Below are positions 3,868 through 8,720 of a stretch of 8,720 nt of DNA, one piece after another. Source of the DNA: an uncultured Mucilaginibacter sp. (lineage in GTDB: Bacteria > Bacteroidota > Bacteroidia > Sphingobacteriales > Sphingobacteriaceae); assembly GCA_946479225.1 (NCBI GenBank), contig CAMLFI010000087.1:1-8720 (forward strand), written 5' to 3'. The position numbers and the translations under genes are program-made. Position 1 is the first letter of the stretch; each line of letters begins with the position of its first letter. Below the pieces are notes generated by a model, which saw nothing but the letters and a program-made list of their open reading frames with translations, was not told the DNA's origin and ran no database searches.

Positions 3868-3875
3868 CCCCCATT

Positions 3876-4020
3876 GCTGGCGCAAGGATTCGGCGTTAGA
3901 AAGAGCGTGGCGTTCTTGTGCCTTTGCACTGTTTAGCTTAGTAATGCTCAAATTAATAACTAGGTTATAAATGGCACAAGAACTTAACCCGCGAGGCCTG
4001 CGCTGCATTCTTGCGCCAGC
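3876..4020. repeat. 145-bp imperfect palindromic element between acyltransferase and NACHT genes
   Basis: Outer arms GCTGGCGCAAG (3876-3886) and CTTGCGCCAGC (4010-4020) are perfect 11-bp inverted repeats, weakly extended inward for another ten bases; CCCC and GGGG just outside continue the symmetry. Inner arms GTTCTTGTGCC (3912-3922) and GGCACAAGAAC (3973-3983) are again perfect for 11 bp. The 50-bp centre is A/T-rich. Each half thus carries one TGGCGCAAG word and one TTCTTGTGCC word. No transposase, and no target duplication visible at the edges. As RNA it would make a long two-tier hairpin 24 bases after the NACHT stop codon, so it could end or protect that mRNA. It may be a MITE-like or BIME-like dispersed repeat. 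Confidence 0.75.
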
Positions 4021-4043
4021 GGGGAAATATTGAATATAGACAA

Positions 4044-6974
4044 TCAATTTAAGCCGAGCCATTTTTCATCTAGCTGACTTAATAATATTCTTGAATTAGA
4101 CCTACCAGTTAAAATGAAATTTTCAGGCCACATATCTTGTGGCACGGAATTGTTAATTTGTAAACTTAATACATATTTTTTTTTGAAATACTCCGTTTTG
4201 AAATTGTCGTAATCTGCTGCTATTTGACCTCTCGATAAATTAACATTATAAAAAATTGATTTCAACCTAAAATAGTCTTTTAGCAATTCATAGATAACAA
4301 TTGAAAATAACCATAAAAAAATTGCTCCGATTAATATTGCGACACCTATCCCAATAAAAGGTGGGACGTTTTCGATGTAATGCGTTAAAGCTATAACTAA
4401 TAAACCAATCACTATCTGAAAGGATATGGTGTAAATCATTCTTTTATTTAAAAAATATTTTCTTAAAAATTCCCGATCAATTGTTAAGAGGATATAAATA
4501 TCTAAGAAAGGAAATAATATAAACGCAATCATTATATGGTGCCATGAAATTGATGGGTCTCTGTTTGAATTAAGAATAAATTTTAAGTACATAGGTAAGC
4601 TCAATGCCGATATAGAAACCATTAATCTTGAAAGCTGTCTCATGCTAAACAGACTTTTTGAAGAATGGACGGAAATAAATTCGCTAGCATAATATAAAGC
4701 TACAATGATAGCAAGGCTAGGATTAAGCACAATAGCTATTGTGGAGAACGTCATAAAAATTATCGAGTCATAATATCTAATTAGTGTCAATTTTCTAATT
4801 GTTTTAAATGGCTCCGAAAGTGATAGTAGAAAAAGCAGTTCTGCTTTTTCATGGACAAGCTCGAAAATGCCTTTTTTAAAAACGAATCGTACTATTCGAT
4901 CCTCAAATGTTTTGCTAATAGATGATAAAAATTTACAAGATTGCACAGCAGTTTGTTCTATCCACCAGTTATTGGTTGCAAAACATCGAAATAAAGCTTC
5001 ATGCATTTCTCTCTGTTCAAGAATGCCAGTAGCTTCTACCGCTATCTTTGTTAAAAGCGGGTGACGTTGATGTTCATAATTATTTATTATTTCTTTGATT
5101 AAGTTACTTAAATCATCCTTAAAAGAAATTAATAAATGTGTTTTTAAACGGTAAGCTTCCACCAAAAACCGCAGACAATGTATTGACCGCTTAAACTGCA
5201 AGATTTCCTTATCCCTTATAAGTTTAATCTCACTCCAGCAAAACTCAGCGATCTCAGTCGCGGTTTCATCTGGAGCAATTTCGCAATATAAAACCATCGA
5301 GTCTCGAAACTTAGAATCGACAGGAATAGAGTTTAAATCTATCATAGATGGGTCTGATAAATATTTTTGAACGATAAAATATTCATTGAATCTTCTATGC
5401 ACAAAACTAAATCTGTTTTCTTCCCCTTTACCAATTCGACCAATTCGACAATAAACGAGTATATCGATAATGCGATCTATATTAACTTCGGAAAACTTTT
5501 CTCTTAATTCATCTAATGGAGCTTCTAAACCAAAACTAATTTTGTTTAGCATATAGGACGCAATCTCAATTGCGTAGTTTTTAACCTGTTCTTGATCCAG
5601 ATCAGCTTTTTTTATAAGATTGTTGGCCGTGGACAATCGACTTTCAATGTAGCTATGATACAGATCGCCTTGTCCTTTCGGTAGTTTATTACCATTATCT
5701 TTTAAGTAAGAATAAATGAGACCAATTGCAAATGGATTACTAGCGATTGGTAGTAAATCCGTACGTCGACTAAAAATTTCCTTAACCGTATCATCATCAA
5801 TTATAATATACTTTCTTAACGCCTGATTAATTTTAAAATGAGTGAATGGACGTAAATTTAATGTGGTAAAAGCTTTAAATTTATCCGTGGGCTTCCTGAA
5901 GTGTCTTGATGCTAATATTCCGCGAGACTCATGAGCGCCGCCCAAGAAACTATATAAGATGTCTGACAGTTTGTCGATAAGCCAAGACGATTCATCCACG
6001 TCTAAAACTGCAGGTATTTCGTCAAAAGAATCAATTATAAAAAAGACATGTCCATTTTCGTAAAGTGTCTTAAAGTATTTATCGATAAAGTTGTCTGCAA
6101 ATATGTCCTTACCTTTTAAAAAACTTAAACAAAAATCATATAAATCCTGCGGTTTTGGAGGATTTTCTTCTGTCCATTTGAAATCAGATGACCATTCTTT
6201 AAGATTTAAATAGATTGGAATTTTCCTTGTCGAAATTACTTCATTGATTAAGTCTCTACAAAGTTTGCGGAGCGCGACGCTTTTACCCGATCCAGGTTCT
6301 CCTAACACCAAAAAAACTTTGCTTTGATAATTGTTTTTTATTGCTTTAATTAAATTGGTGATGTTATTTTTTTTTCCACGGCTGGTATATGTTTCGACCT
6401 CTGCATCTATGCTTGTAAAATGAGCATCGCTCCAATTAGCCTCATTGTCGAAAATATCTATGCGATTTCTTAAATAATTACAAAATGATTTCAATCTAAG
6501 ATTAAAATCCCTTTCAGGAAACAACTCGTTAAACGAATTATCATGCTCCTTCATAACGCTTTTGTCTTGCAAGAAGAAGTTGGCTGCGTGTAGTAAAATC
6601 AGGATTATTAAACTAGTTGTTAGAACGTTGAATTGAAATCTAGTTATTAAAGGAATACCGTATTTGAGTAAAAAATCACTAGTGTTTACGTAAGCAGAAC
6701 TAAAAAACGTGAGATTATTAAAGATAAATACTGCCAGTGGTGAAATTACAACAAGTAAAGATGCTGTTACCCGCCTATAACGAGTTTTCCCAAACTCTTT
6801 AGGCACTAATAACAAATACAGCAGCCAACAAATTGGCAACAGTGTTACTATTATTAAAGCTAAAAAAAGCCATGACCCAATAATACCCATAAAGAATAAG
6901 GAAGTTATTATCGCAAAAAGAACAACAGCAATGAATAAAATGATTGATTTGGGAGTATTTGGTTTGAGTATCAT
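4044..6974 (-). CDS. Membrane NACHT-domain STAND NTPase, candidate antiphage defence protein
   Basis: A 976-residue protein of the NACHT branch of STAND ATPases, signal-sensing switches related to animal NLRs; bacterial members are known in phage defence. Four hydrophobic helices come first (about 11-31, 33-56, 71-90, 113-136). The NACHT domain follows: Walker A GEPGSGKS (225-232), Walker B FFIIDSFDEI (311-320), an ILASR sensor-like motif (353-357), SNPFAIGLI (412-420), and the typical post-NACHT FSFVHRRFNEYF (522-533). About 560-730 is a helical, HEAT-like stretch, a plausible sensor. Five more hydrophobic helices follow (about 737-763, 781-801, 812-831, 846-866, 871-898), then a soluble tail to 976. 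No nuclease, protease or TIR domain is seen, so the membrane segments are the likely effector, perhaps acting by disrupting the membrane; this is inference. The gene is clearly more AT-rich than its neighbours, stands alone, and is flanked by repeat elements, all pointing to transfer. Domain call is firm, biological role less so. Confidence 0.85.
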   Translation of the reverse strand: MILKPNTPKSIILFIAVVLFAIITSLFFMGIIGSWLFLALIIVTLLPICWLLYLLLVPKEFGKTRYRRVTASLLVVISPLAVFIFNNLTFFSSAYVNTSDFLLKYGIPLITRFQFNVLTTSLIILILLHAANFFLQDKSVMKEHDNSFNELFPERDFNLRLKSFCNYLRNRIDIFDNEANWSDAHFTSIDAEVETYTSRGKKNNITNLIKAIKNNYQSKVFLVLGEPGSGKSVALRKLCRDLINEVISTRKIPIYLNLKEWSSDFKWTEENPPKPQDLYDFCLSFLKGKDIFADNFIDKYFKTLYENGHVFFIIDSFDEIPAVLDVDESSWLIDKLSDILYSFLGGAHESRGILASRHFRKPTDKFKAFTTLNLRPFTHFKINQALRKYIIIDDDTVKEIFSRRTDLLPIASNPFAIGLIYSYLKDNGNKLPKGQGDLYHSYIESRLSTANNLIKKADLDQEQVKNYAIEIASYMLNKISFGLEAPLDELREKFSEVNIDRIIDILVYCRIGRIGKGEENRFSFVHRRFNEYFIVQKYLSDPSMIDLNSIPVDSKFRDSMVLYCEIAPDETATEIAEFCWSEIKLIRDKEILQFKRSIHCLRFLVEAYRLKTHLLISFKDDLSNLIKEIINNYEHQRHPLLTKIAVEATGILEQREMHEALFRCFATNNWWIEQTAVQSCKFLSSISKTFEDRIVRFVFKKGIFELVHEKAELLFLLSLSEPFKTIRKLTLIRYYDSIIFMTFSTIAIVLNPSLAIIVALYYASEFISVHSSKSLFSMRQLSRLMVSISALSLPMYLKFILNSNRDPSISWHHIMIAFILFPFLDIYILLTIDREFLRKYFLNKRMIYTISFQIVIGLLVIALTHYIENVPPFIGIGVAILIGAIFLWLFSIVIYELLKDYFRLKSIFYNVNLSRGQIAADYDNFKTEYFKKKYVLSLQINNSVPQDMWPENFILTGRSNSRILLSQLDEKWLGLN

Positions 6975-7066
6975 GATTTGGAAGGTTTGTTTACAAGGTA
7001 AAATTTAATTTATATATAATCAATTAAATATAACTTTACGTTCCAGTGTCAGATAATTGCCCCTCC
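6975..7066 (-). promoter_or_regulatory. Upstream region of the NACHT gene
   Basis: About 90 bp of very A/T-rich DNA before the NACHT ATG. On the - strand it contains TATATTTA, one base off the TAnnTTTG consensus, without a clear TTTG at the right distance; no operator is evident. The promoter must lie here or in the repeat block beyond it, but I cannot place it exactly. Confidence 0.3.
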
Positions 7067-7346
7067 GCTAGCGCACGCATGCCGCGTGTGTTTACTCCCG
7101 CCTCAAACCCACTGTTGCAAAAGTGTTGCTAAACTGTTGCTTTTCTGTTGCAAAAGTGTTGCACTTTGTTCCTAAAAAAGGCCAATTTTAGCAATTCACA
7201 ATAATTTGATAACTAGCACATTACAAACATTTTACAGCTAAATATCCTGACGAATAAGTCATGGTAATTTATAATATCAACTGTCTGTAAATCAAATAAT
7301 TATAATTTTCAGACCAGGGAACATACATTTTTCTGCAACACCCCAC
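7067..7346. repeat. Word-array block A (TGTTGC type)
   Basis: About 280 bp without a gene. In order: a GC-rich flank containing GCATGCCGCG (7077-7086) and AAACCCACTG (7105-7114); five TGTTGC words at 7113, 7124, 7135, 7146 and 7157, exactly 11 bp apart, then TGTTCC at 7167; A/T-rich DNA with ACAGCTAAAT (7234-7243); and one inverted word, GCAACA, at 7335-7340 running into CCCCAC. Block B repeats this plan with another word. Even spacing near one DNA helical turn places the words on one face of the helix, as for protein-binding sites. No coding frame or integrase is present. Confidence 0.8.
7113..7172 (+). repeat. Five TGTTGC words at exact 11-bp period plus TGTTCC
   Basis: Words start at 7113, 7124, 7135, 7146, 7157; the five-base spacers vary (AAAAG, TAAAC, TTTTC, AAAAG). 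The degenerate sixth word TGTTCC begins at 7167, at a 10-bp step. Only the word, not the spacer, is conserved, which argues for selection on word identity and spacing over simple slippage. Confidence 0.9.
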
Positions 7347-7360
7347 AACCCCAATAAAAA

Positions 7361-7381
7361 AATCCCCGAAAAAAGGGGCTT
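7361..7381 (-). terminator. Hairpin at the end of block A, terminator-like on the - strand
   Basis: CCCC (7364-7367) pairs with GGGG (7375-7378) around a seven-base loop, with two A-T pairs beyond a mismatch. Read on the - strand it is followed by seven T, as in an intrinsic terminator; on the + strand there is no T run. The stem is short. No - strand gene lies between it and block B, so what it would terminate is unclear. Confidence 0.5.
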
Positions 7382-7389
7382 CTACCTTT

Positions 7390-7655
7390 GCTGATGCAAG
7401 CCTGCCGCGCCTATTTAGTCCGCTCCAAACCCACTGATCCAGGGTGATCCAAAATGATCCAAAAACGGGTCAATTTTTCAGTTTTTCACTTACTTGATTA
7501 TCAAATAGTTACAACCAATTTATAGCTAAATTTACTAACTTAAAAGTAGTTTCAATTTTATAAAACCAAAACGTTTAAATATTTAAATATCAATTAGTTA
7601 TAAAATAGTGATCCACTTTTTTTTGCTGAGACGCATATTTTTTGGATCACCCCAC
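7390..7655. repeat. Word-array block B (TGATCC type)
   Basis: Diverged copy of block A, displaced by about 322 bp at its left end. It has GCCTGCCGCG (7400-7409), the identical AAACCCACTG (7427-7436), TGATCC at 7435, 7445 and 7455 (10-bp period), A/T-rich DNA containing ATAGCTAAAT (7522-7531), a further TGATCC at 7609 and the inverted word GGATCA at 7644-7649 running into CCCCAC. GTGATCCA (7608-7615) and TGGATCAC (7643-7650) are a perfect 8-bp inverted pair. Compared with block A the word changed at both ends while flanks and middle remain alignable. No coding frame is seen. Confidence 0.8.
7435..7460 (+). repeat. Three TGATCC words at 10-bp period
   Basis: TGATCC begins at 7435, 7445 and 7455, with spacers AGGG and AAAA. 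The period is one base shorter than in block A. The array starts at the same place as in block A: the TG that ends the conserved AAACCCACTG is also the start of the first word. Confidence 0.85.
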
Positions 7656-7662
7656 CAACAAC

Positions 7663-7690
7663 AAAAAAGGCCCCGAACTTCGGGGCCTTT
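7663..7690 (-). terminator. Intrinsic terminator of the SRPBCC gene
   Basis: AAAGGCCCCGAA and TTCGGGGCCTTT form a 12-bp perfect palindrome about a single C (a real loop would open the last pairs). On the - strand it is followed by a run of six T and lies 26 bp after the SRPBCC stop, so it ends that transcript. On the + strand only three T follow. It also occupies the place in block B that the hairpin at 7361-7381 has in block A. Confidence 0.85.
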
Positions 7691-7715
7691 CCAATTTCTG
7701 TGAGTGTATTTATCT

Positions 7716-8540: not shown

Positions 8541-8572
8541 TTTGCCATTGGTTAATACTTATTGTACATTTG
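8541..8572 (+). promoter_or_regulatory. Bacteroidota-type promoter ahead of the B12 riboswitch
   Basis: TTTG (8541-8544), a 20-bp spacer and TACATTTG (8565-8572), a full match to TTTG...TAnnTTTG at all fixed positions. Transcription would begin about 8579, just at the first bases of the riboswitch fold. This is the best promoter in the window. Confidence 0.8.
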
Positions 8573-8578
8573 CCATGC

Positions 8579-8720
8579 TTTAGGTTTCGCGGAAGGTGGC
8601 AACATCGCCGGGAATTAAAAGGGAATACAGTGAAAATCTGTAACTGTCCCGCAGCTGTAAGCTCCATAACCAAACGTCCAATCAAATGGTCACTATTTGC
8701 TAACGCGATGGGAAGACCGG
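8579..8720 (+). ncRNA. Cobalamin (B12) riboswitch, 3' end cut by window edge
   Basis: The aptamer of the AdoCbl-type riboswitch is recognised by AATTAAAAGGGAA (8613-8625), the AGTGAAAATCTGTAACTG stretch, the B12-box core GCAGCTGTAA (8651-8660) and the later GGTCACT and GATGGGAAGACC (8708-8719) that closes the fold. GGGA (8621-8624) can pair with TCCC (8647-8650). In this family binding of cobalamin represses the downstream gene by ending transcription or hiding the start site. The target gene starts beyond the window on the + strand; in Bacteroidota it is usually a BtuB-like TonB-dependent receptor, a cobalamin synthesis gene or a B12-independent enzyme, so no choice can be made. It follows a strong promoter with almost no spare leader. 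Confidence 0.93.

Follow-up and report, generated by a model that had tools for sequence, protein, structure and literature searches.

Two tandem blocks, A and B, of the window (the whole stretch of DNA analysed, 8,720 nucleotides from an uncultured Mucilaginibacter sp.) are best explained, with a probability of about two in three for the explanation as a whole, as members of a dispersed, non-coding, intergenic and mobile-looking Mucilaginibacter repeat family made of scattered, class-specific arrays of helicase-binding iterons. Each element would be an iteron-like array of a short word, direct in a fixed register and inverted once. Each word class would have its own RecA/DnaB-fold ATPase to read it through the HTH; the gene of this ATPase stands alone, often with a full element upstream. 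Blocks A and B would carry different words because each depends on a separate putative ATPase. Relatives of the ATPase occur in integrative elements, where a similar array is placed directly after the ATPase gene and ahead of a primase-type gene, a layout that suggests the array works like an origin. Copies spread within genomes, and words can change in place.

Blocks A and B and their repeat family

The homology of the two blocks, proposed in the initial annotation, is firmly supported. Local alignment of 7051-7385 with 7376-7695 scores 120, against a mean of 28.1 (s.d. 4.5, maximum 55) for 500 pairs of dinucleotide-preserving shuffles. In addition, 45 related elements were used to train a profile HMM after exact word copies had been replaced by N, with the window excluded and five odd loci left out; it matches the body of block A (7168-7334, + strand, E 3.2e-6) and that of block B (7455-7606, + strand, E 1.4e-6). 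Since this word-masked profile finds both without the window in its training set, the relation is independent of the words. Chance likeness of A and B was rejected by the shuffle control and the profile matches together. The order of landmarks noted earlier (shared flank, AAACCCACTG, CAATTTT, AGCTAAAT, CCCCAC) was also confirmed.

Block A opens with a GC-rich left flank (7062-7112, + strand; 3' end AAACCCAC) that resembles the left flank of block B (7385-7434, + strand); 7062-7098 and 7385-7421 agree at 70%. No relatives of the block A flank were found when local BLAST against the loci then compared gave only short, weak matches. Five direct TGTTGC words follow in block A with an 11-bp period (7113-7162, + strand; starts 7113, 7124, 7135, 7146 and 7157), and block comparison places one inverted word at 7335-7340 (- strand; GCAACA on the + strand). 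Block B has three direct TGATCC words with a 10-bp period (7435-7460, + strand; starts 7435, 7445 and 7455), a fourth direct TGATCC at 7609-7614 (+ strand) that was absent from the initial annotation, and the inverted word at 7644-7649 (- strand; GGATCA on the + strand). Thus block A totals five TGTTGC and one GCAACA, and block B four TGATCC and one GGATCA. Compared with the wider family, the left cluster is enlarged in both (three or five words) and the middle pair is lost. The hairpin to the right of block B (about 7664-7690, no strand assigned) had been read as part of the element; more probably it is native to the interval between the SRPBCC gene and rplT and serves there as terminator, because nearly the same 27 bases separate these two genes in the relative L024.

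The window is Mucilaginibacter-like: its infC is 97% and its SRPBCC protein 79% identical to those of Mucilaginibacter sp. dw_454 (L001). Of the 67 Mucilaginibacter loci with sufficient reach, most have infC and rplT close to the SRPBCC gene, and the gap between rplT and the SRPBCC gene is often only a few hundred bases. In the window this gap measures 5.8 kb; besides blocks A and B it contains a 184-aa ORF for which Pfam gives no match, an acyltransferase and a NACHT/NCH3 protein. The 976-aa NACHT protein (4044-6974, - strand), encoded in this variable stretch, is bacterial NLR-like, ends in an NCH3 domain and gave only a weak match in PADLOC. Sequences of the GGCGCAAGAATGC type at 2040-2070 and 3870-4030 (one copy near 2040, an inverted pair near 3885 and 4010) look by eye like another REP-like repeat. 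GATGTGCAGATTTCAGATGTGC repeats occupy the infC-rpmI interval (1141-1310), and a similar string flanks one element of genome G109 (L337). An RNA family reading of the blocks was discarded: at gathering thresholds Rfam gives only a cobalamin riboswitch in the window (8565-8720, + strand, interrupted by the window end).

A typical family element is ~200 bp long and carries up to about six direct words in a fixed register plus one inverted word. The word classes are TGTTTC, TGATCC, TGATTC, TGTTCC, TGTACC, TGTCCC and TGTTAC, with TGTTGC in block A; the word is mostly uniform within one element and differs between classes. Measured from the inverted word, the other words keep returning at the same offsets in different genomes, about -16/-25(/-34), -78/-88 or -88/-98, and -177/-191. 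Used as a DNA query, block B matched 37 of 120 genomes, mostly over short stretches at the terminator hairpin; among these, G061, G117 and G002 led to elements that were read, namely TGTTTC arrays ending in GAAACA and, in G002, TGATCC arrays ending in GGATCA. The TGTTTC pattern occurs in 16 of 120 genomes (1 to 75 matches each) and the TGATCC pattern in 4 of 10 (34, 15, 5 and 4 matches); these counts include overlapping matches, and the reversed-pattern control is zero in the rows listed. Twenty copies in G109 share a common ~200 bp body with unrelated flanks. A pattern built on the AAACCCACTG end was found at three places in 31 genomes, one an element (L133) and two without an array. A pattern scan of viral contigs gave 63 stretches that looked like chance and were set aside. 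Neither this repeat nor a pairing of it with an AAA_25-HTH ATPase came up in a search of the open-access literature with a few terms, which is weak evidence of absence. Other Mucilaginibacter repeats seen alongside are ~170-bp tandem units, CCGTCCCTTGAAAGGGACGG hairpins, and CCCCCTAAAGGGGG and CCCCCTGAAGGGGG palindromes (L001 4375-5065; L287, upstream of the ATPase; empty sites L351-L353 and L364-L365).

A single-word array scan of the loci gave 47 rows (33 TGTTTC, 11 TGATCC, 2 TGTTCC, 1 TGATTC), a few of which are one element counted twice; uniformity is built into these rows because identical words were required. The word-masked profile is the fairer test for this reason. It found seven elements in the window and 67 loci not selected by word. 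Five are single-worded (L002, L005, L006, A and B) and two, L004 and L013, mix TGTTCC with TGTACC; L002, L005 and L006 were in the training set, and A, B, L004 and L013 were not. Non-uniform words were also read in L269, L271 and L387.

Words have changed in place, judging from one orthologous site occupied by the TGATCC element of L002 and the TGTTCC/TGTACC element of L013 and L004. The flanks of this site are 78-80% identical on both sides, and the spacers are conserved while the word letters differ. With words masked, L002 is nearest L013 (65%) and L004 (63%), a G117 element is narrowly behind (61%), and other G002 elements are well behind L013 and L004. The mixed elements L269, L271 and L387 look like half-way states; in L387, from G002, TGTTTC occurs together with the block A word TGTTGC. 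L361, located at the L343 site, was not counted as an in-place change because its backbone is nearer to other copies of its own genome, G085.

The probable ATPase partner and the word classes

When the ORFs flanking 42 elements were compared, the recurrent neighbour that said most was an ATPase, seen in three genomes. In Pfam it has an AAA_25 domain and a C-terminal HTH, with HTH_38, HTH_23 and HTH_7 above cut-offs; the search gave these families only, and a ParB domain is absent from it. The ATPase is the sole gene common to all of the 20 ATPase loci fetched, every other gene family occurring in three at most. An AlphaFold2 model (mean pLDDT 76.7, pTM 0.68) has a core that matches DnaB, KaiC, RadA and T7 gp4, PHROGs groups the protein with DnaB-like helicases, and a RecA-fold core with a Walker A motif, as in the AAA_25 / DnaB-RadA-KaiC group, is present. 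The partner is likely a stand-alone RecA/DnaB-fold ATPase with a C-terminal HTH, not an integrase; hexameric helicase activity is a candidate function that the fold alone does not show. PADLOC returned nothing for the ATPase, NCBIfam nothing above cut-off for the three ATPases tested, and a sequence search of solved structures no useful match. Within the genus, 82 of 120 genomes encode a homologue, and within the order 44 of 201 do; in genomes first met in the order search the homologues are 35-42% identical, except in G264 (50%) and G248 (24%). At E <= 1e-3, 6,364 homologues were found among 8,000 scored.

Most of the 20 ATPase genes have a box like TACTGACA...TGTCACCA upstream and, farther out, often an element. 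The box also appears as a conserved TACTGACA...GTGTCACCA (e.g., L268-L287), followed in several cases by TAYCTTGCAT; the two are a possible operator and promoter. Among 39 distinct ATPases that share at least 54% identity with the query, 17 reached an upstream array score of at least 6, against 1 of 36 below 54%, 0 of 49 downstream stretches, and 9 of 1802 control segments; three of these nine segments are true elements. The 75 "distinct" ATPases are distinct translated strings from 90 loci, so that some near-duplicates may remain. Among the 22 of 39 close and 35 of 36 more distant ATPases that fall below this score, some have mixed or shifted arrays.

Word classes pair with ATPase classes. 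The arrays beside ATPases carry TGTTTC, TGATCC, TGTACC, TGTCCC, TGTTAC, TGTTCC, TGTATC, CGTTTC or mixtures of these. For a prediction test, TGTACC, TGTCCC and TGTTAC were searched in 16 genomes, the word beside the ATPase being the prediction. TGTACC gave 40, 30, 17 and 0 matches in the predicted genomes G093, G112, G090 and G060, and elsewhere one in G109 and two in G073. TGTCCC gave 23 in G062 and 17 in G109 as predicted, and elsewhere two in G073. TGTTAC gave 36, 0 and 2 in the predicted genomes G109, G122 and G073 (where the array is mixed), and elsewhere three each in G085 and G062. The zeros in G060 and G122 say little because there the pattern also misses the ATPase's own array. At least five matches were found in 6 of 9 predicted genome-word cells versus 0 of 39 others (Fisher 6.8e-6), a cut chosen after the counts had been seen, with 3 as the highest other count. 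Several classes coexist in one genome: three ATPases (C156, C151, C127) and three word classes (26, 36 and 17 matches) in G109, and two of each in G001. Counting copies with in-frame stops, a close ATPase (at least 54% identity) is present in 7 of the 8 genomes with at least 10 TGTTTC matches versus 16 of 112 others (Fisher 2.9e-5). Genome G061 counts against the pairing, with 75 TGTTTC matches yet only ATPases of 47-48% identity that lack a scored array, and no intact TGTTTC-type ATPase was found in G004 (19 TGTTTC matches) or G117 (17).

On a tree of 28 ATPase cores, with words read by eye and ATPases without a clear array left out, the word changes at least 15 times. One recognition-helix residue is linked to position 4 of the word (F/Y/C, 17 of 20 against 0 of 8), a link picked after looking and represented by three independent pairs (tree-aware p 0.25). 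The class word would be bound by the HTH of its ATPase. The suggestion in the initial annotation that one factor reads all the words of an element is probably right, with one such factor per class. Its further suggestion, that blocks A and B depend on factors that differ in specificity, is also supported.

More distant relatives of the ATPase are found in complete integrative elements, together with integrases of which some have an arm-binding domain. Homologues of 40-42% identity occur in eight plasmid records of Bacteroides, Phocaeicola and Butyricimonas. In the three examined, the ATPase lies beside a small HTH or excisionase-type gene, and two also have an integrase and a mobilization gene. 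Thirteen loci of a viral collection encode relatives of 41-52% identity. Of 17 loci, 15 were tested for a word array no more than 650 bp from the ATPase stop; 14 have one and L437 has none, several of the loci being near-duplicates. In 100 shuffles each, 12 of the arrays were never equalled and two once. The words are TGTAAC, GTTCAC, TGTTCA, TGTTTC, TGTCCC and TCGTAC, with a TAGTAA/GTAACA array in L439. In the three loci scanned with Pfam, the gene after the array encodes DUF6371 with a zinc ribbon (L434, L446) or a BT4734-like protein with PriCT-2 (L438). PriCT-2 is a primase domain, and DUF6371 may be primase-type as well. The order of helicase, array and primase suggests an origin-like layout, and the array may act as a replication origin.

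Spread of the elements and rival explanations

Elements spread within genomes, as many copies with unrelated flanks and the empty sites show. Two G109 elements (L329 and L343) were traced in 11 other genomes; each orthologous site proved to be occupied in two genomes, while six or seven others have it empty. At the L329 site G073 is filled, and an empty site is seen in G117, G061, G004, G002, G121, G050 and G001, with gaps of 88-166 bp versus 259; the site is readable across in all traced genomes but G120, G058 and G085. The L343 site is filled in G073, empty in G121, G002, G058, G050, G001 and G117, has a TGATTC element nearby in G085, and is not readable across in G004 and G061. In G120 (L363) it carries a ~770-bp insert of other sequence. 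No target duplication was resolved at the empty sites, the comparison being between species of about 80% identity and the ends blurred. The neighbouring genes are convergent for 24 of the 57 elements, tandem for 21, divergent for 7 and unclear for 5; divergent intervals are under-represented (24 of 31 convergent versus divergent, binomial p 0.003; 52 classified).

The copies could instead be sites kept for the host, scattered by other means, at which the ATPase organises the chromosome or regulates genes in the manner of ParB/parS, Noc or an autoregulated regulon. The fixed register, uniform words and HTH-ATPase pairing suit such a binding-site role, and the full element upstream of the ATPase suits autoregulation, but we consider this unlikely since copies come and go among species of one genus. 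As a transcription-factor regulon it was rejected, the positional bias against divergent intervals being the opposite of that expected. Still less probable is movement by a REP-associated Y1 (HUH) transposase, with the ATPase only binding. Y1_Tnp genes are present in 9 of 10 element-bearing genomes searched, the right end of the element can fold as a W/W' hairpin, and PMC6006769 describes a Bacteroidetes subclass of such proteins flanked by atypical repeated structures. Elements, however, lie in only 2 of 29 Y1 loci, against roughly 1 expected from element density, and the partial genome G120 has 31 TGTTTC matches with no Y1_Tnp match. A REPtron would have its Y1 gene flanked by the repeat; since elements show no clear excess near Y1 genes, the Y1 transposase was dropped as the partner. 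Two Y1 proteins, L216 (G109) and L224 (G061), have NHIH and YIHENP motifs and resemble the Bacteroidetes subclass 2.6 of PMC6006769.

The initial annotation had read the blocks as attachment-like sites, or small elements moved in trans, of two related tyrosine recombinases differing in arm specificity. Non-coding elements that spread were borne out by the filled and empty sites; the recombinase as their mover was not. A middle stretch framed by direct words and one inverted word does resemble a set of arm sites, and distant ATPase relatives sit in integrative elements with an arm-binding-domain integrase (L438, L446). No integrase family, however, recurs around the 42 elements or in the 20 stand-alone ATPase loci; the array of the distant elements lies by the ATPase stop in 14 of 15 loci; and the word follows the ATPase in Mucilaginibacter genomes, where the ATPase alone is shared by all 20 loci. 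The words are thus poorly explained as recombinase arm sites. With integrases confined to the distant integrative elements and no linked cognate integrase of the kind an attachment site calls for, the tyrosine recombinase was rejected as partner, and we regard this reading as very improbable.

For the favoured reading, scattered arrays each bound by the ATPase of its class, spread would be driven by the ATPase, and the best guess for copying is helicase loading at an array followed by replication-linked copying. A bolder form of it is tentative and on balance doubtful: the selfish repeats would be scattered helicase-loading origins, bound chromosome-wide in class arrays by a stand-alone DnaB/RecA-type ATPase with kinship to the replication module of integrative elements, and copied by local replication without a transposase, so that word-insulated systems coexist and an ATPase and its dozens of arrays shift specificity together.

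Comparison with known systems

The elements share features with several known systems. Like ParB/parS and Noc, they are scattered sites with a nucleotide-hydrolysing DNA-binding protein, and TGTTTCAC and TGTTCCAC resemble parS half-sites, as does the TGTTTCAC/GTGAAACA of TGTTTC and TGTTCC elements. The ATPase differs in lacking a ParB domain, the words differ between classes, and the copies differ between related species. MITEs of DDE transposons are likewise short, non-coding and numerous, with an inverted end word and empty sites. In contrast to these, no transposase with the element ends appeared in the searches made (which did not include DDE families by name), the internal words are in fixed register, and no target duplication was resolved. 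Iteron origins work with plasmid Rep proteins or with helicases of the RSF1010 RepA kind. They too have direct repeats, spaced roughly by the helical period, next to an ATPase gene of the replication type; a word array adjoins the ATPase gene in 14 of 15 distant loci, with a primase-type gene next in L434, L438 and L446. The Mucilaginibacter ATPase gene, however, stands alone in the chromosome, with dozens of arrays scattered.

PMC6006769 ties REP classes to one gene with adjoining copies and describes gene-repeat co-evolution. As with REPs and REPtrons there, many short intergenic copies fall into several classes per genome, with one gene per class and copies beside it; here that gene is the ATPase, not a Y1 gene. 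Two differences stand out. The partner, a RecA/DnaB-fold ATPase, carries an HTH, and Pfam shows no HUH nuclease domain in it; and 6-base words arrayed over ~200 bp make up the element, instead of a 20-40 bp GTAG hairpin. If the favoured reading is right, genes annotated "AAA family ATPase" or "hypothetical protein" would gain a testable DNA target, to be read from the adjoining word, and the variation of word and HTH over more than seven classes, up to three per genome, would be a natural experiment in how protein-site specificity shifts. It would also provide a second route, beside REP/Y1 pairs, by which one gene maintains dozens of short repeats, with a helicase-type ATPase in place of the expected nuclease.
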